Source: Sordaria brevicollis
Lineage: Eukaryota > Ascomycota > Sordariomycetes > Sordariales > Sordariaceae
DNA: 64,000 nucleotides
Assembly: GCA_033439795.1 (NCBI GenBank)
Contig: JAUTDP010000012.1
Span: 496,001-560,000 of the forward strand
Direction of reading: 5' to 3'
Both the position numbers and the translations under genes were made by a program. This document shows positions 5,295 through 25,614 of this stretch, piece by piece. Every line of letters begins with the position of its first letter. Position 1 is the first letter of the stretch. The notes under the pieces were generated by a model. The model was not told the DNA's origin, ran no database searches, and saw only the letters and a program-made list of their open reading frames with translations.

Positions 5295-7790
5295 TCACTG
5301 CATCATCGAATCGTCCGGTCCGTCATCTTCCTCCAAGCTCTCGATGGCTTCCTTGATTTGAAGGCTCGCCTATACACAGCACGGATTAGCGACGTCTGCC
5401 TGGTCACATCGTGCAGCATTAGAATCACTCACCTTTGGATCCAAGCTCAGGGCAATAGTGAAATGGCGCACCGCCGACTTCTTGTCGTGCAGTGTCTTGG
5501 AGAGCTTGCCCAAAAGGAAGTGCACCTGGGCCCTGTCCGGAGCCAGGTCCTTCAAAATCATGAGTTCGTGCTGTGCTTCCTTCAACCGTCCCTTCTGCAA
5601 AAGGGCGCGAGCCATCTTGAGCCGAACATCAGGGGCGCGCGGGGCCAGTTCGGTCGCTCTAGTGAAGTATGGTAGGGCCTGGTCGATCAGTTTCTGTTTG
5701 TGCAAAATCGAGCCCATGCAGCAGATCAACACCGCGTGGGTCGGGTGGATGACCGAAGCAGCGTGGTAATGGCTCAGCGCTTTGTCGAAGTTGCCCAGCT
5801 TTTCGTAAACCCTTCCGATGCCGTAGTAGGCGTTGTAGTGGCGCTTATCGGCTGCGATGGCGTGGCGGTAGGCCGTGAGGGCCTTATCGTATTCCTCGTT
5901 CTCTACATGCTCGTGTCCTTGTAAAGTGTATGCGTACGCAAACTTGGGGTCGAGCTGCGTCGCTCGCTTGAAACATCTCAGAGCTTGCTCATGGTCATAT
6001 GCTAATGACCAGGCGTTTCCGAGAGCACACCAAGCCTCTGGTGAATCCCATACCGAGTCGATCATTTCATGAGCAAGGAATGAAAGCTCCGTCTCCTTCT
6101 TCAAATGCCACAGAACCGTCGAGTAAACCTCCATGTCCTCAAGCCGAGTCGGAGCAATAACGCGAAGACGCTTAAAGTACTTCTCTGCCTCGGCATAGTT
6201 GGCCTGCTCGTACTGCGTCCTTCCCATCTGTGCCAAGACCCATGGAGTGTCCTGGTGATTCCTAGGTAGTGACATATACGCCACCACTGCCTCCTGACAT
6301 TGGAACTCGGACGAGCGCGCATATCCGAGTCCCAACTTCTTCAATAGATCGAATATCGTTTTCAAACCTTCTTCAACCGCTTTAATAGACTCGGACTCCG
6401 TTGGTTTGGGTGCTGGGGCCGGAGCTGGTGCCGCCTGCATTACTGGCGGCTCCTTGGCGCGTGGTGCCTCGGCGTGGTCAATGTCCATACCATTCTCCTC
6501 CTGTGGTGGCTTTCGGTTGCCACTGATAACACGGCCAACGTTTGCTCCACTAGAGCCCGGCCGGGCAAATCGAGATGATATTGGGGGCCTAGCCTTCCTT
6601 AACTCACGGGTTGCTGCCGTGCTCGAAGTCTTCGTTGCCGTTGATCTCGGGACCACATTGAGCCTTGCGCTTCGCCTGGGCTCATCACTGTTCATCGATC
6701 TGGTCTGGACTGGGTGCCCCGCTGCCGTACGTTTCCGTTCAGTAGTTGAACTAGAGACGGTCGACGTCTTGGCACCAGAGTCAGCATGATCTGTGCCAGA
6801 TTCTTGGGCCTTTTCTTTCCTCCTTGTTCCCAACCGGTGTCCCGTTTTTGAGGGCGCGTCGGTCAAAGTAGAATCTGCTGCCTGGGCACCCCGAGTTCTC
6901 CGAGGTGGTGCTTGCGGCGCCTCTTTATGGGCGGCGGGAACAGGCGCAGGCTGAGACCCCGTTTCCTCGATCGGTTTCCCTGGCTGAATTGGTGTTATTC
7001 CAGACTGCGAAAGGTACATCTTGGATACAAAGCCGTTTTCCGAGTCTGGGTAAGATGCTAATTCCTGAGATGTCCCATATGGTCCGAATGGGTCGCTTGG
7101 CTGCCTGTTCTGTTGCTGTCCCATCTTTTTTTGTTGCAACGGCTCTGGTGGCTGTGGAGAGGGCCCTGCAATCCAGGCAAGAATAGGCGGAGCGTTAAGG
7201 CCATGCTCGAGATTACGCGCAAGAGAGTCGTTTGTCTTGAACACATTGGGCACCCTGACGCTTACTCCCATGTCGCAAAGGCTGGTAAAAGCTTCCCACA
7301 TGAATGGATTTCGTCGCAGCGCCTCCTCAAAACACGGTATAGCCTTTTTCTTGTCGTCGTATGCTCGGTAGAGTCGACCCAGGAGACAGCTAAAGGCGGC
7401 GGCATCGGGATATGGCATCCTGGTAAAAGACGTATGTTTCCCAAAATTTTCCGCCTTTGACCATTGCTTCCTCCCATTCTCCAAGCCCGTGATTCCATCT
7501 TTGTATCGCTCCAACTCTAAGCACGCCTGAGCATAGACATAACAGGACCCCAAATGTGTGCCTCGATGTCCCGGTCCCCGGCTGATCTGATACGCAGTTC
7601 GAACATCGCCGAGTCGCAAGTGAGTATAGGCGAGAAGATAAGCGGAATCGCAGAAAGATGGGTCGTGGGCGTAAAGTCGTTCGGCAAAGAAGAGGGCGCT
7701 CTCGTAGGCGCTGTTGTCGAGATGGTAATAAACGGCCTGCCGTAGCAAAAGAGAGACGGTAACATCATTTGGCGTCATCTTCCCAGCCAT
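5295..7790 (-). CDS. bimA: Anaphase-promoting complex subunit Cdc27/Apc3 (BimA)
   Basis: Two exons (5433-7790 and 5295-5369; intron 5370-5432, GTGAGT...GTATAG) encode 810 aa. The intron removes a read-through tail and restores the conserved C-terminus ASLQIKEAIESLEEDD. The N-terminal region (about residues 10-100, AVYYHLDNSAYESALFFAERL) is the TPR-type dimerisation module of Cdc27. Residues about 210-480 are a low-complexity Pro/Arg/Ser linker. Residues about 490-790 contain a run of tetratricopeptide repeats (WCALGNAWSLAYDHEQALRCF, YYGIGRVYEKLGNFDKALSHY). The protein is a scaffold subunit of the APC/C ubiquitin ligase that binds the IR tail of Cdc20/Cdh1. The start chosen is the first true ATG (MAGKMTPND); the frame continues upstream only with non-ATG codons. 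Confidence 0.95.
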
Positions 7791-9720
7791 GGCCGAACCA
7801 CCAAACCCGCGGTCAAAGTGGCGTATGGTAAATGCTACCGGCAAAACCGATCCATGGGATCACCAAATAAGAAATGGTGAGCTAAGGGTAAGACGCCTCG
7901 TCCAAATCACGGAGCTTGGAAGTATCAGCGGGAGTAACGGATGCGCAAAGATCGACTCGAAACGGTGTGGTTATCGAGGGCGCAGGGAAGGACGGAGCGA
8001 GGGGCTGAATCGTGGTTCGTAATCGTGAAACTCGTGAATCGACGGTCGGGACAGTCTTGTCGGAATCAGTTCTGCGCCTGCACGGTCAAAGCAAAGCCGG
8101 GTGCAAGGGGGTAATGGCTGCGCTCAAATGAAGGGCGCGCGCGAACAATGGAGGATGCAGCTGCTGTAAATTAAAAAAAGTATCGACAAAAGAAGAATCG
8201 TTTGCTAAAAGCGTCGCAGAAGTGGCTAGACCTGAATGTTGGAGGTGATGGAATGCTGAAGATTCCGCTTCCGAGGAGCACGATGGGTCTGTGACGTCGG
8301 GGAAAAACAAAAAAAAAAGAGTTGAAGATGTACGATGCACCCGGCAAGCAGGTCACCGGCAGGGAAGGGTCCAGGGGGGACAGGCTTCTCCAACAACGAC
8401 AAGAACAACCCAGATAGTATGTCTAAAAGGACATGACTTAGTTTCCACCCTCCCAAAACAATTTGTTGCGATTTAGCACCCGGCGGAGAAGGGATCGAGG
8501 TGGCGGCGGCAGCAAGGGCTGTCTCGAGTGGTCGCGCGGCAATGTTGAAGTCGCGATAGACTGTCGGAACCGGTGACGGCAACCGGACTCTGATTTGCTT
8601 GTTCGTTACGACTGCAGCGCTGGCTGGCTACGAGCTGCCAGTGTAGGTTGTTCGCGACTTCACAGGGTGAGACTTGTTGCAAGTGGTTTGGTTGTCGGGT
8701 TGAATGTTGTGGTTGAGTGCGACAGCGACCAATTGGATGGGCTACGCGACCGACGCTGTTTCCAAACCAAACACTGGTGGGGAGAGCTTGCCGGGCAACA
8801 CAGTGACAACCGACCCGACCCATGTCCCCGTCTTCAGTTCTGCAACCGCAAACTGACAGCGCCGAGAACGGCTGCACCCCACTGTAGTCAAAGCCACATG
8901 GCGCCCTGGTGCCTGCAGTATCGTCAATCGATTTAGCGCAACGGGTCACTACCACCAGCCACACTGCAGTCAACATTCAGTGGCTGGTGAGGATCCATTC
9001 AAGACAACATCACAACATCATGGGCAACTTCAACCTGCGTTTCTTCATCAACTTGCATGCAGACGGTATCTCTTTTAAACATGAACTTCACCCTATTGAA
9101 TAATGATACTTCCGCGACCATCTCTATTCCGAGCGGGCTGATACCTTCCCACCCTACTCTGTGGTCTATGACATCTTTGCTCCTACCCTCCGATGACTTG
9201 GTAGACTTCAACGTTGGAAGGAGGCCGGGGACTATAGGGCAGGTGCTTTCGTGATACATCAGCTTAGCTGTTGCTTCAGAGGCAGAAATAAGGAAGGGAA
9301 GTCGCAAAGGCTCAGATCATTTCCCTTGTGAACTTGACCCTGGACCGCTCCTGGCTTGCTTGGTATTGCTCCTTCCCCCGTTCGAGACTTCGCGGATCGA
9401 CCACTCCAAAGTTGAATTTCACTTTCCTCTACCACCGAATGATTGTCCACATCAAAGAATTCCCGCCCATTTCATTTATTTGGGAATGACCCCCGGGCCT
9501 CACGAAGTCGAACATCCCTTACTACAATTAATTTCGTCAGATCCGCATATCTTATGAGTAAGGAGACTGGGAAGATCAAACTGTCGGAAGTGTCCGCTAG
9601 GGAAAAGCCTACTGAAGCAAAAAATAGACCGACATGATTGACCTATCTCGGTATCTCTTTCATATTCTGAGCAGAATGAAAGCTGATATAGAGACAGTCA
9701 AAAAAGAAGAGAAAAAAGCA
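7791..9720. other. Intergenic upstream of CDC27
   Basis: This is the promoter and leader of CDC27 plus unassigned sequence. Several 60-167-codon frames occur on both strands, but their translations look random and none has a homologue I recognise. No repeat or RNA gene is seen. Confidence 0.45.
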
Positions 9721-10496: not shown

Positions 10497-12871
10497 TTAT
10501 CCTCGATATTGCACATTTACCTCTTGCTCAATCGTGTCATTACCGACTCTCAACGACCATTTGGGCTCGCCCTCAAATTTCATCATCAACCGCAAGTTGT
10601 CCATCCTACGGTGGACTCTGCCCATCGGATCCCAGACTTGTGACAAGTCCGTCCAAGGAACGTGGATATCGTAGTTGATGGTACACAAAGTCTGCACAGA
10701 GTCGGTGTGGTCTCTCCTCACAGGCGGGCTCTCGGCATCGCTTGTCATGATGTATAACTCGACGTTCCTCAAGTTCTCCGGAGTGCGGATATACTTGTAG
10801 AACACATATTCGACGGGTTCTCGGTTATCCACCGGTTCGTTCTGTGTCAACCATATCAGTATTTGAACTTGGTTGAAAAGCATTCACATATGGAGGTTGT
10901 CATACCTGCTTGAGATACCAGAACATCCTATACACCATTTCTCGGCCGTCGGGATTTGTGTAGCATCGGTCTACTGACCGGTCCAGCGGTGGATTCAGCA
11001 CACCATCTATAGGACAGCCAAGCTCAACACCATAGCTGAACCTCGATACTCGCGAGACAACTGAGGGAAGTGTTGGGATGGAGTCAGATGCTCCTTTCAA
11101 GACAGCAATCACGGCTCCTCTTGCAACAGCCGACCATCTACGCCAAAATTCAAAAAGGTTAGTCAACGGCTTCTCAGTTGCGTGAAATGTTATACTCGGA
11201 GCTGATGAGGGGATTCATACGCTCGTCTTGGTTGCAATACGTTCTGATGCTGCCCATTGAGCTGATTGTACAAGTAGGGCGAACCTCCAAGACCACCAAC
11301 CAAAAGAATATTCTATACATGAGTTTTAGCTCCAACGTCCATAACAACAGCGCTTCCCCGGAATCCAGGCCTACCTTGGGGCCGCCGCGGTATTTTTCTC
11401 GGATCAGAGCGATCTGCTCACTGATGAGAGTCCGAATACCCGTAAAGGTCTTGCTGAAGAAGAACTCGACAGTATGCCTGTAACAACGGCTGTTAGCTTC
11501 TCCCAGTTCAGTGCAACGAGCATGTATTTGCTCTTACTTAGGGACAGGAAAGCTATCCGTGGTGCCTTTGAACTTCTTGAGCATCGAGAACACTCTGGCT
11601 GGAGGCCGGATCACGAATGTGTCTTGAGTCTCTGCGCCACTAAAGGTTCGCTTCATGGTGTGCTCCCACTCATTGTTCATGAACAAGCGAAACTCGTTGG
11701 CCTCAACCTTTCCAAATTTCAACCCGGACTTCAACTTCATCCAGTCCTCAAATGCGCTGTCTACCAGGAAGGCACCGCACAGTTTACCTGTAAGCAACAT
11801 GTCAGTAGGTGTATCGATGATCCGAATCAACACTCTTCTTACCGTCTCCCTTAACAGCTTCCTTGACCTGGAAAGGCTCCATCGAAGTCACCTCATAGCT
11901 AATGATATCCTGTTCAAAGATCAGTCTCTAGGTCCTGATGGAACGACAACGACGTGATCAAGAGCACAAAAACTTACCACCGTACCACCACCACAGTCAC
12001 AGACGATAAAGGTCTCTCCGACCTCAATGTCAGGATGATTCCTTCGTTCATATAGAGTCGACAAGGCCGCGGCTTCCGGCTCTTCAACCAAGATGAGTTT
12101 TGTCTCGCCGATTCTCCTCCTGTCTTCAATACCGGCCCTTCGAGCCGCCTCTTTCAGTCTCTCTCGGGCATATGGCGGCCAGATCGCGGGCACAGTCACA
12201 GCAACCTTCAAAGGCAACGTATCGATATTAGTAATCTCACGCCTGATATCCTGCAGCGTGTGATCCCACACCTCCTTGAGAAACCTCGCAATGAGGTCAA
12301 CTACGCCGTCTCCCGCATATTCTGGAAGCATCTCTAATTGTCGACGTGCCCGCCCCAGATACTGTGAGTTGCGGACATCTTCTTGGGCGTCGTGGTGATT
12401 GAGCAGCAGCAGCTTAAACCATCGGATAGGATCATGGTTTCTGGGAACCATATAACCCCAATTACCCGTCCCAAGGTCAACTTGAGTGGGAATCTGCACC
12501 TCATCTCGCAGCGTGGGATCGATAGAGGGCCAGCCTGTCACATCATGAATGATCTCTGGGTCGTCAGAGTATGCCCATGAAGCCCCGGAGTAGCTGACAT
12601 CAAGTTAGATCAGGAACATGATAGCGGTCTTCACCCCGGCCTGAGAGGTTACATACGTTGTTCCGAAATCGATTCCAATTGCGATGTACCTTTGGGGACG
12701 GCTGCGCCTTGGTTGCGATCGCTCGAAAGAAGCAGGTGCTGCTGGTCTCGCTGGTTGCGGAGTACCTTGGCCAAACCCATAATTGGGATAACCAGGCGGG
12801 ACTGGGGTAGGAGGGTATTCTAAGGAGCCGAACAATCTCGCAGCGTGCGAGGGGGGACTTCTTGACGACAT
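10497..12871 (-). CDS. Hsp70-like ATPase A (HSPA12-type actin-fold protein)
   Basis: Eight exons (12657-12871, 11978-12593, 11843-11909, 11538-11787, 11375-11477, 11221-11312, 10906-11137, 10497-10841) give 639 aa. A Pro-rich N-terminal extension (residues 1-60) precedes the Hsp70 phosphate-1 motif IGIDFGTT (65-72). The phosphate-2 motif CDCGGGTVDII (from residue 270) and the adenosine motif VGGLGGSP (422-429) are intact, so ATP binding is expected. The C-terminal part (after AWSAVARGAV) is not a standard substrate-binding domain. This places it in the divergent Hsp70/HSPA12-like group that is expanded in fungi, rather than with canonical chaperones. It is divergently paired, 1.03 kb away, with GTPase A, and the same pair recurs at 18.9-24.8 kb. 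Its biological role is unknown. Boundaries are supported by the paralogue, which shares the first six introns. Confidence 0.88.
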
Positions 12872-13902: not shown

Positions 13903-15005
13903 ATGGTGACAAGAAGAGATCCCCGTACGGACGGGATGGTGTTGGTGATGGGTGTTACAGGAGCTGGGAAGAGTACATTCATCAATACTCTCAAACCCGG
14001 ATCGGTTACAGTTGGTCACGATCTTGAATCAAGTAAGTACAAGATCAATCGATTTCACCAAGAAAAGGTTTTCTGACCAAATTAAAAGCCCAAGCGCCTC
14101 CCCAGGCGGTCCAAATGTTCCTAGACGACGAGGAGCGTCTCTCCGTTACCGTCGTTGACACCCCAGGCTTTGATGATACCTGGAGATCCGACGCAGAAAT
14201 TCTGGCCGAGATCACCGAGTATCTTGCTACGCAGTACGCGCTTCGGATCCCGCTCAAGGGCATCATATACCTACAACCCATATACGAAACCCGTATGAAG
14301 GGCTCGGCACGCAAGTACTTCGACATGTTTCGCCTCTTGTGCGGCGACCAAGCGCTCAAGAACGTCATGCTCGTTACCACCCGCTGGGACACCGTCGGCC
14401 AGGCACCTGGCCAGATGGGAGACGCGCTACGGCGTGAACAAGAACTCCTGGATAACTGGTGGAAACCGATGTTGAAGCAGGGCGCCAGTGCTGCGCAGTT
14501 CAAAGGGACGAGAGGTTCAGCTGAGGCGATGGTGCTTGAATTGGTGAGGGATCGTGATGAAGTGGTGTTGGACGTTCAACGGGAGCTCGTGGATGGACAC
14601 AAGGAAGTTGGTGAAACTACCGTGGGTATGCCGTTCATGAGCGAGTTGGAGAACGACATTGTTAAGTGGAAGCGAGTTCTGGCGAAGACTGACGAGGATC
14701 TGGCACAAGCGAGGGAGAGTGAGAGACAGCTGCGAAGTCAGGGCCTGAGAGGCGATGCGATGAAAGACCTGACGGACCATGTCAGATTGCTGAAGGACAG
14801 AAGAAGAGAGGCAGAAAAGGTCGTGAAGCAGCTGGAGACTACACAGAAGAAGATACAGGTCAGGGTGGGTGATAAGGTGAGGCTGCAAATTGGGGAAAAG
14901 ATATCGTCACTCGGAGGAAGGTTTGACCCCGTGTCGACGGGCATAACAGTGTTCGCGGCGGTGTTGAACATCACTCTGACCGTGGTGAAATTCCTGGTTA
15001 TGTAG
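13903..15005 (+). CDS. P-loop GTPase A (AIG1/TOC-like G domain, possible C-terminal anchor)
   Basis: Two exons (13903-14032, 14089-15005) give 348 aa. G1 is GVTGAGKST (17-25). G3 is DTPGF (67-71), which the 56-nt intron precedes. A TTRWD motif (140-144) sits at the place of G4 NKxD, as in a fungal branch of AIG1-like G proteins. Residues about 220-310 are strongly charged and helical (coiled-coil-like). The last 20 residues (TVFAAVLNITLTVVKFLVM) are hydrophobic and could form a tail anchor. The start is the first in-frame ATG; a later ATG at 13936 (MVLVMGVTG) is possible. The gene is divergent from Hsp70-like A. Substrate and pathway are unknown; GTP binding is expected from the motifs. Confidence 0.85.
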
Positions 15006-15766: not shown

Positions 15767-18525
15767 ATGGGTAGCAAGCACTATCCTCCCAACGCATCCC
15801 AGGTGGCCGCGTCACCCGGCCGGTTTGCACTCCTTCCTGCTCCTCCCATTTCTACTGTGGGCCTATCCACTACCAGCTCGAGCTGGGCATCAGACGGTGG
15901 TAGTCGTCGTCATCACAGTTTTGATACGCCTAGAAAGGGAATACCTTCCTCACCGACATCCTCATCTACCAAGAAGCCATCACTGGTAAAGAGAGCGTTC
16001 AAATACTTCAACAGTAGTACCAATCTGCAGCTCTATATGAGGTCAGACAGTCGGCATGACGATCGGAATTACGAGGTTGACAACGGCACCAGTGGGGCAT
16101 TTTATGACCTCACAGAGTCAAAGAACGATACTTTGATGATGGTGTCGACCATAACAACAGACCCAAAGTCAACTGGACCAGTCCTGCTCCACAAAAGATT
16201 GCCGTTGACTCCTCCCGCTAGAGCACCTACTGCTCCTCCAATGTTCGGCGCATTCGAAACCGTGCGCTCAATCCCTGTGGACGAAGACACTTCACGCAAT
16301 GGGATGTCCCTTGACCTGAGCCTCTTCTCTTCGACTGTCTCACGGCCCGTCCTTCTTCCGCGGATTTCAGACACACCATCTCTTGGGAGCCGCGGACTTG
16401 GGAATGATGATCCACCTACTGAAACCTCTCCACCACCAAGCTTATCGAGATCATCCGCTGCCCAACTTCAGGAATCGCAAGGAAAAGATCACACCATTGT
16501 ATCAACGGGAGTCATACGAGTGCTCGACCAAGCATACCCACAACCACCTCAGTATCACCAACAGAACCAATTTCGCTCTCAGTCTGTGCCTCACACTGGC
16601 TTCCCCCTCACTGCTCCACCAGGACAGAACCCGCCAGGTTATCATCATGCGAACAAGAGATCGTCCCTCCTTCCACCGAGCTCCGCCACCAGCAGCCCTG
16701 CCAGTGTCTCTTCTACATATGCCAGCAATGATATCCTCAAAAGAAAGAAATTGCCACCGTCACAGCCATCAGAGAGACGCCTGCATCAACAACCACAGCC
16801 ACAACAGAATCATGAGCAGCAATCACAGCCTCAACAACAAAGTCAGCAGCGGCCACCCCATAGCCGAAGGCAAAGTCAACAGTCGCCAGTCCTCCAAGAA
16901 ATGGACAACCTCAACATCATGCTTGAATCGCAGCTCATCTCTGAGAGACAAAAGAACGAAGAGCTGCAAAAGCGGATTGACGATCTTTACGATCTCCTCA
17001 ATGAGCAGAACCAGCGTCAGGAGTCAGCTAACCATGGCGCTGGCGCTGCAGCTGGTAACTATTTGCAGGGCAGCGAGGTCCGGCAAAGATGGAAGACGTT
17101 GGGGTGGAAGATACGGCAGTTTATTCATGCTGTTTCGAGTCAAGCAGGCAGTGTCCCTGACGGCGGTCACGGTCCAGATCAAAGCTGTGATGGTGATGAC
17201 GGTGACGATACTAGAGATGGTAATGGTAGCAGGTGGCAGCAGTTGTCGAGTGAGCAAGCTGTTTTGGGCCGTCAACAACACTCCAGTAACCGATCTGGTA
17301 TGCAGTCATCAAAGACCTCAGCGACCAATGTCAACGAAATCCTACGGTCCATCACCCCTCACTACCGTACGTTGCTGGCGATGAAAGACATGGATGGCCG
17401 ACAACTGCTGGCCGAAGCAGTGATCTGGTCTCTATTGGTCAAGGAAATCTTTGGCACAAAGGAGATGACCAGCTGGATGCATTGGGCTGGGACGTTATCT
17501 TCTAATTTGCGAGTTATGGGTAAGTTTTTAACCTTTTCCCCCATTTGTGTTACTTGATTGTTATGAAAGCCTGAACACCCAACTGACAATTGTATCAACC
17601 CTCATCAGTAGCAGAAGCGTTCCAACACGGCACGCAAAACTCCAAAGAGTTCCATCGCTGGCGGTGCCACACAGCCAGCTACCTCGCCACTCTACCCAAC
17701 GAAGCCGATGTCCACACCCACGCCGAGCTCGTGGTTCAAAAGCTCGAACACGTCGTCTGGTACACTCTCACCGGCGGTGGTAGCGCAGCCTCTAACAAAC
17801 CCAAAACCTCCCGCAGCACCAAGACCAACAACTTCAACAACCTCCGCTCCGGCCTCCTAGAGATCGTCCTCTCCGCCATCCAATTCGACAAAGAACTCTG
17901 CCAACAACGAGCCTTTTGGTATTGCCAGTATCCAGCCGCCACTTCTCCTCCCAAGGACAACAACGATGGCGGTGTGATCCGGTTCGAACCACAAACAATG
18001 GAAGCACTAAACGGCGACAGCAAATCCGTCGGTCCAACCGCAGTAGTAACGCTCATGGTTTCTCCAATGTTAGTCAAAGCAGGCGACGCCTACGGCGACG
18101 GGTACGACAGACCGGAGGTAATAGAGAAGAGCGTGGTGCATGTTGTTAGTAAGTATTGGGAGGATAATGGGTATTCGAACTCGTGTGAGAATGTACACTC
18201 GCCGTCGCCTTCTCAGTCTCAGTCTCAGTCTCCGATGTCGTCGTCGTTGGCGAGTACTTCGAGAGAGCATAGAGGTACCAGGAGTAGAGGTATGAGCACG
18301 GCTCCGGAGACAGGGACATCGGGATCGTCTGCTATGGTTGTTTATAGAGCTCCGTCTTCACGGAATAGGTATGTTAGTAGTAGTAGTAGGCCAGCTTCGT
18401 GGGAAAAGTCCAAGGATGGAAGTGGAACGAGTAAAGGGAAGGGAAAGAAGTGGTTGGGTGGGTTGAAGAGGAGGACGGCATTTAATAAGGGCGCGAGGTC
18501 ATCGGAGTTTTATGATGGTTCGTAA
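15767..18525 (+). CDS. Unrecognised coiled-coil protein with C-terminal domain shared with the Hsp70B fusion
   Basis: Two exons (15767-17519, 17609-18525; the splice restores the sequence MVAEAF) encode 889 aa. Residues 1-375 are Ser/Pro-rich and disordered with a Gln-rich patch at about 345-375. Residues 379-420 form a coiled coil (NEELQKRIDDLYDLLNEQNQR-like heptads). Residues about 437-765 form a folded domain that I do not recognise. It contains AEAVIWSLLVKEIFGTKE, FWYCQYP, IRFEPQTM and VGPTAVVTLMVSP in order. The same ordered motifs occur at the C-terminus of the convergent Hsp70-like protein B, so the domain is a real mobile unit. The tail is Ser/Lys-rich. No enzymatic motif is visible. 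The start is the first ATG of the frame. Confidence 0.85.
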
Positions 18526-18984
18526 GTAAGAGGGAGACGGGGGTTTCTGTCAGGCACTAAAGCTAGACGATTGTTCATGATGACCTTTTTTCCTGGTACG
18601 GGAAAGAGAGAAAAAAATTATTACACGCTACAGTAGGTCTTGAGATGGATTTCATGAACGAGAAGGAAAGAATATTCTCTTTTGGTATTTGAAAAGCCCA
18701 TGCCATCGGCTTGAGACTCCGCAACCAAACTTGAACTGCAAAAAAAAAGTGTGTACGAGGGTTCGGTCATCTTTAGATGTTATTAGGTAGCTACAAACAG
18801 GAAGATTTATATTAGGTATCATTGGAAGAATAAAGAAAGTTACATAAATCCGTTGTGAAAATAAATCGTAGCCAACTTTACGGAATCGAAGATGATGCGT
18901 TCTTACCACCGGCCCAGTTAGTCTTGCCTCATCCCCAATTTAGGGCAGACAGTTGGGAACCAAGGGGAAGCTCATGCCTGATCA
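18526..18984. other. Short intergenic between convergent homologous 3' ends
   Basis: The 459 bp between two convergent genes holds only A/T-rich 3' UTR-like sequence. No gene is seen. Confidence 0.5.
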
Positions 18985-21900
18985 TTATTTGGGCTTTGTA
19001 ATGGAGGTAGGATGCTTCGAACGAAGTGTGATGACATGACACTTAGCCTCAACAGAGTTGTTCGGGTCGGCCATATTGATGAGCCCCGGACGTATGACGA
19101 GTCCCACAACCACATCAGGGCCGACATCGGGCGAGATAGACCAGCTTCTTTCTCCCATGGTGCGTGCATCGAATTTGACTGTGCTTTGTTCTTTTGTCGG
19201 GATGCTGCTTCCAGCATGACCTGACATCAGACCCAGAGCAGTCCCTGTAGCCCGGTCATCGGAGTTCCAGTCTGGTTGCGAGCGGGGATATTCGCAAAAC
19301 CACAAGTCCGACAGTTGACGGAGTTGTCGACCAAGGAGTATGGCGCTTGTTGCCAGCCCATGAATCTGAGCGTCTAACTGGATCAGATATTCCCTCTTCA
19401 TGTTGAGAACAAGCCCAAGAGTACATCTGATATGCACTGTCACGGTATCGGCGCTGTTGAAAACGCTCTTATGGTTTTTCGTACCTAAAATCCGGCGATC
19501 CATGAGAACGTTCCAAAGCGCTGCCTCCGCCAACCACGATAGCCGATGCCTCACTATGGGCCAATCCTCAGGTGATGGCGTGGTTAGGAAGTCGAGTATA
19601 TGTCGAAAGGACGTGAGTGATAGTGCACATTCGCTTTCCGATATACACTTGAGCCATTCTTCCAGATTTTCTCGATGCTGAGTGTTGGAACCTGTTGCTC
19701 TCGATATGGTACCAGTACTACCTATCGAACGACTGCGAGTATTTGGAGGTGGTGGGAAACGACACTCACTCAGATCAGTCGGGGAGCGGAGCAAATCGAA
19801 GTAACCTTGGATCAGGGATTCGCTCCATCTTCGTATATCCCAGCACAGTGAATCCCATTGATTGATGATCCTGATTTCCTTAATCGTAGTTGGAACGGTA
19901 CTAGCGTTTTCGGCTGGGTGTCTTTGGGGGACATTTTCCGGCTGGGACGCTTCAGTATCCGCGATACGCTCTGGTTGACTGGCCGAACCCTCTGACTGTC
20001 CCGGGAGGTTTCTTTTCCCATTATCATCTTCTTCCGACGTGACGCCATAGTCTTGTCGATCAGAGCTGCTGCCTCCCCCCTCTTCTACCACCGAATCCTG
20101 AGCTGGCGGTCCATTTTTAAAGACATAGAACGCCAGTTGGGCCTCCAATCTTTCATTTTTCTCCATGGTGTATTTGAGACTGTCAAACCGTTCTCTAGCT
20201 TGTTGCCCGAGTATTTCGACTTGGTTTCTGAGTCTTTCGACCTCTCTTTGAAGGTCTGCGTAACTCCTGGGGCGTATCCAGACGTTTTGTTGAGGGGCAA
20301 CCTCATCTCCTCTCTTCATTCGTATGCCTTCAATTTGGTGGGTTTGCTCCTCGTTTTGCTCCCGCAGCAAACAAACTTCTCGTATAAGGTGATCTCGGAA
20401 CTTCATGCATACACTATTGTGGCAAGGTGTACCAGAAGTTGATGCGTCGAGGGAAGTAGTCCGATCAGGAGCTGTCTCGTCGATTGTTGTGGAATAGCGC
20501 ATCTCGGTGCTCCCTTCAAGTGACTCTGCGAATGTGGAAAACGTCTCGCCATTGTCAGCGACGGCTGTTTCTGATCCAAGGCTTTGTTCACTGCTTGTCG
20601 CAATTGCAGTGCTCGCAACAACTTGCTTGCTTGACTGTACCGGGGGAAGGAGTCGAAATATCCCTAATTTTCCCAGTGAAAATTTCCAAGATGGCGTCTT
20701 TGGTGGCGACGTAGGGGTATTCGGGTGTTGTTCGGTTTCTCCAGACGTCGACACAGTGTTCTCTGATGTTGATGCTTGCATAGGTTCCGAATAAAGTTCT
20801 GCCGTAGACTCAGAAGCAGAACCATTTGTGCTCTGAACACCGTACAGGTCGTGCGAGAGCTGCTGAGAGCTTTCTTCAACTTTGATGATATCATCAAAGA
20901 CTGCATTACCTCGGGCACTTAGTATCATGACGACCGCTCCGGTCACGACCGCCGACCATCTATCAAATGGACTGTTAGCTGACGGCTGCAAATCACTTAC
21001 CATTACGACAGCAAAAATTTGGTGAAAACCTTGGTACTTACGCGTCAGATGGCTGTGAGATGTTTTGGAACTGGCTTTGAAGCTCTGAATACAGGTATGG
21101 TGATGAACCGAGACCTCCGACAAGAAACACTTTCTGACAGAGAAAACAAAGCATCAGTACCAACCAATATCCTTTTTTGACGTATTATGTTCACTCACCT
21201 TTGGAGGTTTTTTAAGTTCCAGCTCAATATCATTTATGAATTCCTTTATCAGTTGCCTTACTCCACAGTATGATTTCGCAAAGAATTGAGTGATTGAGTC
21301 CCTAACATTGTGACCAGGTGTATCAGTAAGACTAGGTCAAGACACTGTGATAAATGATGGGTCGCCGCCTTACTGTGGGATCTTGATATCACTCTCATCC
21401 CCATAACCATGAGCGGATAAATGGACAAGGGGCGCCTCGTGCGTGTCCCTCCCACTGAATGTCCGCTTGATAGTATACTCCCATTCATGCTTTATCAGTT
21501 CTTGAAACCTGCTGTCAGCTGACCTAGTGGGAGACAACTTGCGTTTGATCCAGTTATCAAAACTTAGATCGACGAGGAACCCCCCACAAAGTTTGCCTGC
21601 TGGAGAGAGTTGTTAGCCCTTTCCCGCGTGGCATATGCGGGATAATTGTCTTATTACCTCCTCCAGGGGTAATTCTTTGGACATCGACAGACGAGGAGCC
21701 ATGCGATTTGACATACCCCGAGGACATATCCTATAGAGGCATTGCGTCAACAACCGATTTGCACGATGGTATAAAAGCCAGTAAGGTAAGCTAGGACTTG
21801 CTCAGCGAAGCAGGGGAAACTCACTACTGACACGCCACCACAGTCGCATACTATGAAGGCTTCATCAACTTCTATCTCCGGAGACAACCTGCTTTCGTAG

Positions 21901-22543
21901 AGGGCATATGTTGCTGCCGCGTCGGGCTCATCAAACAACCCAATGACTGTTTGGTTGAAGAGCTTGTGATCCAGAAATCCTGCCTTGACTGCTGCAACTA
22001 ACCTCTGGCGGGCATATTCTGGCCAAGCGGCAGGAACAGTGACGGCGACTCTTACTTGGCGGTGATTGATGTTGACATGACTCTCAATGTCCTGGGCCGT
22101 GTATTTCCAGACTGCTCGGAAGAAATCTGCGATCACATCGTTGATTCCATAACCAGTGGCGTTTTCGTGTACCTCAAGCAGCTCTCTCATCTTGCGTAGA
22201 TATGCGGATTTCCTCAGGTCTTCTCCCAAATCGTCTGTATCAAGCAGGAGGTGCTTGAGCCAGCGAATTGGGGTACCATCTTTGGGGACTAGGAACCCCC
22301 ATTCTCCGGTCTCGAGATCAATTTGTGTGGGAATCTGCGACTCCAATGTTTGTCGTCCATCCACAGCTGGCCATCCTGTTACCCGGTAAATGTTATCAGG
22401 ATCCAGAGAAGAAGCCCAAGATACCGCCGAGTGCCTGTTGATCGGTCAGGACCATGAGTATTCGAAAAGCGTGACAGACTTACTTACGTGGTTCCAAAGT
22501 CAATCCCTATCGCGATATATCCGTCAAGGTCATTAGAAGCCAT
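18985..22543 (-). CDS. Hsp70-like protein B fused to coiled coil and unknown C-terminal domain
   Basis: Seven exons (22488-22543, 21825-22434, 21658-21730, 21374-21596, 21199-21301, 21042-21133, 18985-20959) give 1043 aa. Residues 1 to about 405 are an Hsp70-like nucleotide-binding domain paralogous to protein A: IGIDFGTT (12-19), adenosine motif VGGLGSSP (360-367). All six introns lie at the same sites, and exons 5 and 6 have the same lengths (103 and 92 nt). The phosphate-2 motif is degenerate (CDCGGVSV instead of CDCGGGTV). After WSAVVTGAVV the protein leaves the Hsp70 family. It continues with a Ser/Thr-rich linker, a coiled coil (570-661) and a C-terminal domain (about 745-1043: AEAALWNVLMDRRILGTKN, LWFCEYP, VKFDARTM, VGPDVVVGLVIRP). 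That domain matches the neighbouring gene at 15.8-18.5 kb. Function is unknown; a nucleotide-sensing or pseudo-ATPase scaffold is possible. Confidence 0.87.
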
Positions 22544-23773: not shown

Positions 23774-24792
23774 ATGTCAGCCTATGTGGAAAAGGAAGGA
23801 ATTGTGCTTGTAATGGGTGTGACTGGCGTTGGCAAAAGCTCCTTCATTGATAAGCTCCTTCCTGGATCGGTGGAAGTAGGCCATACAATGGAGTCAAGTT
23901 AGTAAAGACGAGATTTCCCGTACAAAATAACCACATAGGCAAATGTAAACAGACGACTAACCGTTTCAACAAATCAGCCACACAGAACCCGCAAGCCGTC
24001 AAATTATTCTTGGACGAGAAACAGACCGAGTCCGTCACGGTTGTCGATACTCCTGGTTTCGATGATACATGGCGTACCGATGAAGAGGTGCTCGAAGTGA
24101 TTGCCGAATACATGGCCACCCAGTACGTTCTGGGTGTGCCTCTGAAAGGAATCATCTATATGCATTCGATTACGGAGGTTAGGATGAAAGGGTCGTCGCG
24201 GAAGTTCCTCAAGATGTTCCAGTCACTTTGTGGAGACGATGCTATGAAGAAGGTCATATTAGTGACAACGCATTGGGATGCCATCAAGCCAGCAGAAATG
24301 GGTGACGCCACCCGCCGCGAACAGGAGCTGATTGACAGATGGTGGGCACCTATGCTCAGGAAGGGCTCCTGGACCACAAGATATCATGGCACGCGTGAAT
24401 CGGCCGAGGCTTTGGTCTTGGAATTGGCGGAAGACGAGGAGAGCATTGTTCTCGATGTGCAAAGGGAGCTTATCGATTACAATAAGAAGCTGGGGGAAAC
24501 CAGGGCGGGACTACCCTTCAAACAGGAGTTGGAGGAAGAGATTGCCGAGCAGAGATATTTGGCCGTAGAGCGCGATCCTAACAGAAGAAACGATACCGGA
24601 TCATTGCCCTTGGACAAAGACTTGGAGGAAAAGCAGCAACGACTGAAGGCCAACATTGGAGAAAAAGTGAAGATGCACATAACGCGGATAAGGGAGGAGC
24701 TGAGAAACAACCCAAACATCTTGACGGGTGTCCGGGTATTTGCAAAGGTGATGAGCCTTGCACTCACCATTGCTTCCCTCGCCACTTTGTAG
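23774..24792 (+). CDS. P-loop GTPase B (paralogue of GTPase A)
   Basis: Two exons (23774-23897, 23978-24792) give 312 aa. G1 is GVTGVGKSS (15-23), G3 is DTPGF (65-69), and TTHWD (138-142) is at the G4 position. The intron sits at exactly the same codon and phase as in GTPase A (after ...MES/LES). Large blocks are near-identical between the two, for example the stretches PLKGIIY and GDA.RREQEL. The helical middle is shorter than in A. The end (VMSLALTIASLATL) is again hydrophobic, consistent with a membrane tail. The gene is divergently arranged with Hsp70-like gene B. The family is AIG1/TOC-like GTPases; cellular role is unknown. Confidence 0.87.
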
Positions 24793-25116
24793 ATGATTCC
24801 GTCGTAGAGAGTACGTATATAGTATTGGAACTCAAGACGAAATGAATGATGGGTTGGATATCGAACTGGTTTAACACAAGGGAACACGCCAAACGTTAAA
24901 GTCAATAGTGGAGCATTTTGTGGTCGGTGACTGCGCTCAACCGCTTAGTAAGCAATTCCTGTGACGATGATGCCAGGATGCAGCTTCCACTCTCAACCCT
25001 GAACACCTCACCCAACGCGCAACACTCATCAACGCAAACTCACCAGCTCGGCACCCAACATCAAGACATTGCGCTTCGTCACCTCTCAATCTGCCGGCAC
25101 TCACACAATCTAGACA
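24793..25116. promoter_or_regulatory. Intergenic upstream of TMEM208/SND2
   Basis: The 3' UTR of GTPase B is followed by a C/A-rich leader directly before the next ATG. I see nothing else. Confidence 0.45.
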
Positions 25117-25614
25117 ATGGCCCAAAAAGCGCGCAAAGACCGAGCCAAGTCCAACGAGACGACGCTCAAGAACCTGCACATCGGCTCTCTCACCGTCAAC
25201 GGCATCTTCCTCCTCTCTCACTTCCTCTTCCGGTCGCGCTCGCTTCTATTCTGGTTCATCCTCTCCATCCCTAGCTTTCTCTGCCAGTACACGCTCGAGA
25301 AGACCGGTCGGCCCAGCTATGATACGTCCACCAAGGCTCTCAAGGCCTCAGGCGAGGACCTCGCCGCCCCTGGCCTGACCGAGTACATGTTCGATGTTGT
25401 CTGGGTCACCTGGGCGGCCGCCATTCTCGTCACGCTTTTCGGCAACTGGGCGTGGATTTTCTGGACTGTTGTCCCTGCTTTCGGTCTTTACAAGGGCTTT
25501 GGCCTGATGGGCGCGGCCAAGTCGATGGCTGGGTTGGGTATGAATGCTGGCGCGGGCGGTGAGGGTGCTGCTGTGCCGGCTGGTAACAGGAAGCAGAGGC
25601 GGGCTGCTGCCTAA
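25117..25614 (+). CDS. SND2: ER membrane protein TMEM208/SND2 family (DUF788)
   Basis: Single exon, 165 aa. The start MAQKARKDRAKSNETTLKNLH, two pairs of hydrophobic segments (about 25-62 and 95-130) separated by a polar loop, and the basic tail (GNRKQRR) are typical of the TMEM208/Snd2 family. In yeast Snd2 works in the SND pathway that targets proteins with central or C-terminal membrane segments to the ER. The length matches the family. It lies head-to-tail with GTPase B but is a housekeeping gene with no evident link to it. Confidence 0.9.
   Translation: MAQKARKDRAKSNETTLKNLHIGSLTVNGIFLLSHFLFRSRSLLFWFILSIPSFLCQYTLEKTGRPSYDTSTKALKASGEDLAAPGLTEYMFDVVWVTWAAAILVTLFGNWAWIFWTVVPAFGLYKGFGLMGAAKSMAGLGMNAGAGGEGAAVPAGNRKQRRAAA

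Follow-up and report, generated by a model that had tools for sequence, protein, structure and literature searches.

The 64-kb window analysed here (Sordaria brevicollis, C4:496001-560000; positions are given within it, and all gene-order results refer to this one genome) contains a five-gene cluster composed of Hsp70-like gene A (HspA, minus strand), GTPase 1 (plus), a gene for a stand-alone protein termed X1 (plus), Hsp70-like gene B (HspB, minus) and GTPase 2 (plus). X1 and HspB are convergent with 459 bases between them and share an unnamed domain (domain X), which stands alone in X1 and forms the C-terminus of the Hsp70-like ATPase HspB (copy X2). The models of both genes, rebuilt from the DNA, are identical letter for letter to P0001 (B0T20DRAFT_65191; X1) and P0006 (B0T20DRAFT_65526; HspB) and comprise the following features:

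15767-17519 and 17609-18525, plus strand: exons of X1, stand-alone, 889 residues, with a Pro/Gln-rich N-terminus, a short heptad-like stretch (not significant), domain X and a basic tail.
17069-18177, plus strand: domain X of X1 (residues 435-774), with a phase-1 intron inside (17520-17608).
18985-22543, minus strand: HspB, 1043 residues, consisting of an ATPase domain (about residues 1-400), followed by a linker, a coiled-coil-like stretch and domain X2.
22543-22488, 22434-21825, 21730-21658, 21596-21374, 21301-21199, 21133-21042 and 20959-18985, minus strand: the seven exons of HspB.
20917-22543 (approximate), minus strand: Hsp70-like nucleotide-binding domain of HspB (about residues 1-400), phosphate-1 motif GIDFGTT kept.
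21825-21851, minus strand: second phosphate motif of HspB, VCDCGGVSV (residues 214-222), placed by alignment.
20134-20265, minus strand: coiled-coil-like stretch of HspB (residues 618-661), from heptad periodicity.
19009-19884, minus strand: domain X2 of HspB (residues ~745-1036), sharing its exon with the end of the ATPase domain.

Judged from pairwise and profile comparisons, the domain shared by X1 and the HspB C-terminus is real, in agreement with the original prediction of one module in a stand-alone and a fused version, side by side and convergent. BLASTP aligned X1 with X2 at E = 1e-6, and profile searches in both directions reached the same range: a profile of X2 and its ortholog found X1 at E = 9.8e-7 (2000 shuffled versions of X1 and X2 reached 1.3 at best), and a profile of X1 with two orthologs found X2 at E = 1.1e-6 (best shuffle 0.75, best unrelated open reading frame 0.32). 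The profile-profile comparison proposed with that prediction was likewise significant (hhalign with two small ortholog sets, probability 95.4, E = 1.8e-8), the match extending over 76 columns only. A profile built from four further members in the genome (X3-X6, see below) and the domain X protein P0010 matched X1 at E = 3.1e-19, and the core profile plus X1 and an ortholog found X2 at E = 5.7e-5. The four motifs predicted to be shared are present in both proteins and in the predicted order; their wording has to be corrected, since X1 reads FGTK instead of (I/L)GTK with a length difference of one residue, and three rather than four residues precede the P of motif 4.

Several points speak against the relationship of X1 and X2: overall identity is only 19 %, the profile of X3-X6 and P0010 without X1 misses X2 (X2 ortholog at E = 3), and the alignment shows that X2 lacks both the helix with the WR motif and the C-terminal SP.L.(K/R)AG(N/D)..G..Y motif. 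X1, X4 and X5 have both; in the C-terminal motif, X3 reads AP and X6 has RAG with one extra residue. The low identity, the restriction of the strong part of the alignment to 76 columns and the miss by the X3-X6 profile could be taken as signs of chance or convergence, but with reciprocal E-values of about 1e-6 and none of 2000 shuffles better than 0.75 this explanation is strongly disfavoured and hardly credible. Since the profile of X3-X6 and P0010 does not find X2, X2 joins the family only through X1; on the alignments it is nearest to X1 and is a much-changed, partly lost copy.

By gene structure, the fusion in HspB is genuine. Its last exon (20959-18985, 1975 bases) is unbroken from the end of the ATPase domain (WSAVVTGAVVMILS) via the linker to X2, and part of this junction is repeated in P0007 (661 residues), a protein covering the C-terminal part of the fusion only, which starts at the matching MILSTRG, continues through X2 and is 70 % identical over the searched region. 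The region replaced in HspB can be seen in the neighbouring paralogue:

10497-12871, minus strand: HspA, 639 residues in eight exons, the unfused paralogue of HspB with its own C-terminal region.

Over the part of the ATPase domain that was compared, HspA and HspB are 53 % identical. The corresponding HspA exon begins at the same point (WSAVARGAV...) before continuing into another C-terminal region of ~180 residues, in which there is no domain X. Since HspA keeps this region and HspB is without it, HspB has lost it and carries X2 instead. The Pfam family PF00012 matches HspB above its curated cut-off (E = 2.5e-6) over residues 146-400 only, and with the HspA-type C-terminal region (a candidate substrate-binding part) missing as well, HspB shows no Hsp70 substrate-binding C-terminal domain.

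The fused copy also bears marks of degeneration. One glycine of the second phosphate motif is lost (DCGGVSVD in HspB vs DCGGGTVD, within VCDCGGGTV, in HspA), whereas the four other Hsp70-like genes whose compared piece covers the motif, HspA among them, all keep GGGT. Tree branches are longer for HspB than for HspA (0.9 vs 0.35) and for X2 than for X1 (3.07 vs 0.59) in trees of few divergent sequences that are mostly unresolved. From the sequence, X2 is the most worn of the domain X copies, and the GGVS motif argues against a fully working switch in HspB. The same features, i.e., GGVS, the loss of the WR helix and the KAG..G..Y motif from X2 and the long branches of both in these small trees, would be expected if HspB were a decaying or dead-end fusion without function; this is nonetheless unlikely, as HspB is open over seven exons with GT-AG introns and P0007 is open across the whole C-terminal part at 70 % identity.

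Domain X is part of a family in this genome. Members X3-X6 were found by X sequence alone, in searches of the genome with X1, X3 and X4: X3 (489 residues; first seen at E = 0.016), X4 (697 residues) and X5 (586 residues) are all located on contig C24 and X6 (1152 residues) on C22. Two weak matches of X3 (C1, E = 0.11; C12, E = 5.46) fell on its coiled-coil part and were set aside. X1, X3, X4, X5 and X6 have in common a phase-1 intron ~17-24 residues before the WR motif (17 residues upstream in X1), with GTAAG-type donors in X1, X3, X4 and X5 and the donor GTTTGC in X6, whose splice sites were chosen among candidates. The X1 junction lies about five residues off that of the other members in the alignment, and X2 is without the intron.

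A coiled coil had been predicted before each of the two copies in the window. In a crude heptad test of X1, HspB, X4-X7 and P0010, windows at p <= 0.01 numbered 18 of 73 in X5, 40 of 130 in X6 and 32 of 151 in X7 (a later-found candidate, see below), compared with 3 of 31 in HspB (residues 618-661), 3 of 48 in X4, 2 of 18 in P0010 and none of 27 in X1; since the windows overlap, little weight attaches to the low counts. Ahead of the domain, heptad periodicity is thus clear in X5, X6 and X7, weak in HspB, X4 and P0010 and not seen in X1, so that the prediction is weakly supported for the fused copy and not supported for the stand-alone one.

As anticipated in the original prediction, the domain has no name: Pfam (E <= 1) and NCBIfam (cut-off) scans of X1 returned no family, and for the X proteins, X7, TM1 and TM2 (the last two introduced below) both collections gave only coiled-coil or sub-cut-off matches. 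PF23649, listed for P0010, was not among the best 25 of 36 families in the Pfam scan. The best match of domain X to a PDB sequence was at E = 0.064. Structure prediction had been suggested and was carried out, with models too poor for a fold, which has to be counted against our interpretation: that of P0008 (11 sequences) reached a predicted local distance difference test score (pLDDT) of 47 and a predicted template modelling score (pTM) of 0.43, that of P0010 (7 sequences) 52.6 and 0.41, respectively. Foldseek with the P0010 model found no match in the PDB at E <= 0.001. Both models suggest helices and that of P0010 two short strands near the end, on which we do not rely. Domain X is probably an unnamed fungal domain, mostly helical with a short strand-rich end and usually located behind a coiled coil. 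Relatives outside this genome were found in Copromyces, Pseudoneurospora, Neurospora sp. IMI 360204 and Parachaetomium by three protein searches, which scored ~8000 candidates sharing most words, returned 5, 2 and 4 proteins and say little on spread. In the open-access literature searched, no report was found of domain X or of its pairing with Hsp70-like genes.

Two members have conspicuous tails. The X6 tail (L018 4824-6776, on C22) contains RGRGRPRKD and RGRGRPR repeats, which resemble AT-hooks, and the X4 tail (L016 4826-5848, on C24) several psi-K-x-E sites.

The genome contains at least eight divergent Hsp70-like genes, and several domain X genes are located beside them. X4 and X5 are each head to head with a different Hsp70-like gene (inferred starts ~1.6 and ~1.0 kb apart, respectively), and X3 is head to head, at ~1.1 kb, with the following element:

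L017 4924-5112, plus strand: probable relic, situated between X3 and X5 and similar to an Hsp70-like C-terminus (E = 0.015 to HspA).

The position of this relic suggests, on sequence grounds, that the X-Hsp70 pair was tandemly copied. With the window left out, three of the four members X3-X6 are therefore head to head with an Hsp70-like gene or probable relic; counted by locus, the figure is one of two if the C24 genes are taken as one, or two of three if X4 (~50-60 kb away) is counted apart. Under random placement, a given gene would fall within 2-5 kb of any of eight Hsp70-like genes with a chance of ~0.0014-0.0023; only this per-gene chance is used, and multi-gene probabilities, which had counted members discovered next to Hsp70-like genes, are disregarded. 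Identity between the two Hsp70-like proteins encoded on C24 is 63 % over the part compared, as against 33 % for X4 and X5; if they were copied as pairs, X therefore changed much faster than its Hsp70-like neighbour.

In the reverse direction, the neighbourhoods of four more Hsp70-like loci were inspected, yielding one moderately supported member (X7), one tentative member (TM1) and two negatives. X7 (C26:132 kb; ~1130 residues) is head to head with an Hsp70-like gene and combines a coiled coil with an X-like end. A profile without X7 found its second exon at E = 8e-4, and one that also excluded TM1 and TM2 at 2.5e-3 (best unrelated open reading frame ~0.2 among 2264), and a phase-1 intron tentatively fits the matching place, the acceptor being uncertain. 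TM1 (C25), also head to head with an Hsp70-like gene, consists of a hydrophobic, membrane-helix-like stretch and a further part that sequence profiles without TM1 did not recognise as X (E 0.24-1.3). Together with its paralogue TM2, it matched the X profile in hhalign with a score of 36.5 (probability 43, E = 2.5e-4), compared with a mean of 13.9 and a maximum of 22.4 in 100 column shuffles. The Hsp70-like genes on C6 and at C26:1504 have no X neighbour at E < 0.1; a weak match beside the latter (42 residues, E 0.14-2.3) was rejected as chance. The paralogue is placed as follows:

L037 4359-6097 (C2:63500-73400): TM2, paralogue of TM1 with a membrane-helix-like stretch.

The end of TM2 (LPGLEKLGDGKGEVYEVPKKVVE) closely resembles that of domain X. 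In TM1 and TM2, a distant relative of the domain follows a hydrophobic, membrane-helix-like stretch, which bears on the possibility that X is a nuclear or DNA-bound scaffold, with the Hsp70-like neighbour merely its folding chaperone. The tails would fit such a role (AT-hook-like RGRGRPR repeats in X6, psi-K-x-E sites in X4), but the membrane-type relatives do not, and we consider it very unlikely.

Within the window, the Hsp70-like genes have head-to-head partners of another kind, and the cluster is bounded by an ANAPC3/CDC27-type TPR gene and a TMEM208/SND2 gene:

5370-7859, minus strand: ANAPC3/CDC27-like conserved gene, one flank of the cluster.
13903-15005, plus strand: GTPase 1, 348 residues, head to head with HspA, with a C-terminal hydrophobic stretch.
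23774-24792, plus strand: GTPase 2, 312 residues, head to head with HspB, likewise ending in a hydrophobic stretch.
25114-25614, plus strand: TMEM208/SND2 conserved gene, the other flank.

GTPase 1 scores above the Pfam cut-off for septin, MMR_HSR1 and AIG1 models, has septins and GIMAP4 as PDB matches, and is 58 % identical to GTPase 2 over the matched part. Since both GTPase genes have an Hsp70-like gene as their head-to-head neighbour, an Hsp70-GTPase unit was probably duplicated in the window. A second head-to-head pair of the same AIG1/septin-like GTPase type is located at C12:1388500-1398400 (L031); no Hsp70-like gene was found among the seven longest open frames of that locus, nor on C12 in the Hsp70-like search. 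The conserved flanks are useful anchors for gene-order comparison among fungi.

Several observations weigh against a partnership of X and Hsp70-like proteins. In the window, X1 is convergent with HspB rather than head to head, the head-to-head partners of HspA and HspB being the GTPases. X3, X4 and X5 are confined to 60 kb of a single contig and may stem from one duplicated pair, which would reduce the independent pairings outside the window to one or two, and the relic beside X3 matches HspA at E = 0.015 only. X6 and TM2 have no Hsp70-like gene nearby, and the Hsp70-like genes on C6 and at C26:1504 lack an X neighbour. The search that led to X7 and TM1 started from Hsp70-like genes; with other profiles, X7 reached only E = 0.02 and 0.061, and its first exon escaped recognition (E = 45).

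The pairing might accordingly reflect shared history only, i.e., a neighbour pair copied by segmental duplication and kept by a shared promoter, with HspB as a chance fusion and no joint work of the products. The location of X3, X4 and X5 on one contig, the duplicated appearance of HspA/GTPase 1 and HspB/GTPase 2 and the solitary X6 and TM2 fit this explanation. However, the ATPase domains compared across loci where X or TM1 is adjacent, HspA among them, are 21-63 % identical to each other and X4 and X5 only 33 %; the linkage has therefore outlasted long divergence, and fusion and linkage point the same way. Shared history alone is to be taken seriously but seems somewhat unlikely.

We favour, at about an even chance, the reading that a small set of divergent Hsp70-like ATPases has dedicated partners in the X proteins, the two often being encoded by head-to-head gene pairs, and that HspB is a fused, probably regulatory copy. 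Such a partnership is suggested because fusion and head-to-head gene neighbourhood both occur. The partnership put forward in the original prediction gains from the other domain X members head to head with Hsp70-like genes, whereas the GGVS motif of HspB argues against its fused copy being a fully working switch.

In Hsp70 proteins, what the C-terminal domain binds is coupled to the nucleotide state of the ATPase domain. The coiled coils point to oligomers, and in the favoured reading the coiled coil would make X an oligomer, which the Hsp70-like protein would bind via its C-terminal region or its ATPase domain; the nucleotide state of the latter protein would then set how much X is free or assembled. 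In HspB, the coiled-coil stretch and X2 have taken the place of the region after the ATPase domain, tethering a copy of the partner to the ATPase. An X module in place of the second part of HspB is expected if X normally binds there or acts right after the ATPase. Since both the second phosphate motif and X2 have degenerated, HspB is more likely a regulator, scaffold or decoy for the neighbouring HspA/X1 pair than a complete switch. The most economical account is that these Hsp70-like proteins would hold or remodel X oligomers and that HspB, with its altered phosphate motif and worn X2, would modulate this.

The gene layout resembles that of the fungal HET-S/NWD2 STAND gene pairs, and the combination of a GTPase with Hsp70 and a coiled coil that of bacterial conflict systems. 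In HET-S/NWD2 pairs, a stand-alone protein adjoins a module-NTPase fusion, with the NTPase proposed as receptor (PMC3321046). Here, too, two adjacent genes share a module that is stand-alone in one and fused to an NTPase in the other. However, in HET-S/NWD2 pairs the STAND protein carries the module N-terminally, as a short prion-forming motif, in contrast to a ~300-residue domain at the C-terminus of an Hsp70-like ATPase. No STAND NTPase (NACHT or NB-ARC) was found in X1 or HspB with Pfam at E <= 1, and an nSTAND6 match of GTPase 1 (E = 0.15) is below its cut-off.

Bacterial GTPase-centred conflict systems encode GTPases together with HSP70-family proteins, including HSP70 without the peptide-binding part (PMC7159879). 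This joint encoding is shared with the present cluster, but those systems are based on GAP1-N2 GTPases and can carry FNIII, GrpE or DnaJ parts (PMC7159879); Pfam scans of X1, HspA, HspB and GTPase 1 returned no FNIII, GrpE, DnaJ or GAP1-N2 parts. CoCoNuT systems likewise combine coiled coils with a GTPase and with an Hsp70-like unit, which one type carries as a fusion and the others as a separate component and whose nucleotide motifs are partly degenerate, but are prokaryotic McrBC relatives with McrB GTPases and an Hsp70-like nucleotide-binding domain/substrate-binding domain (NBD/SBD) unit (PMC11090510). GTPase 1 is not of the GAP1-N2 or McrB type, matching septin, MMR_HSR1 and AIG1 models instead. 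By the features tested at sequence level, the cluster belongs to neither the HET-S/NWD2 pairs nor the bacterial conflict systems.

The atypical Hsp70s SSE, SSZ and LHS of Ascomycota are also fast-evolving and regulate partners rather than running a full chaperone cycle, but the survey concerned (PMC3879978) follows yeast Hsp70 orthologs, whereas the window genes match PF00012 only weakly. The word 'hsp70' is absent from the main text of a review on fungal immune systems (PMC10197012). One may speculate that filamentous fungi use Hsp70-like ATPases in place of STAND receptors, with an Hsp70-like switch and a fast-evolving X protein with a coiled coil, encoded head to head, forming a signalling or self/non-self system in membrane, cytosolic and nuclear versions, and HspB serving as an integrated decoy with a worn copy of the guarded X; we regard this as decidedly unlikely. 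HSPA12-type Hsp70s, a possible parallel to the genes studied here, have divergent ATPase domains outside the canonical chaperones and are not known to be fused to a coiled-coil X module.

If the pairing holds in other fungi, divergent Hsp70-like ATPases would gain a candidate partner and domain X a concrete binding partner open to testing. The natural fusion, which puts the partner in the place of the part following the ATPase domain, would make the interface easy to study.

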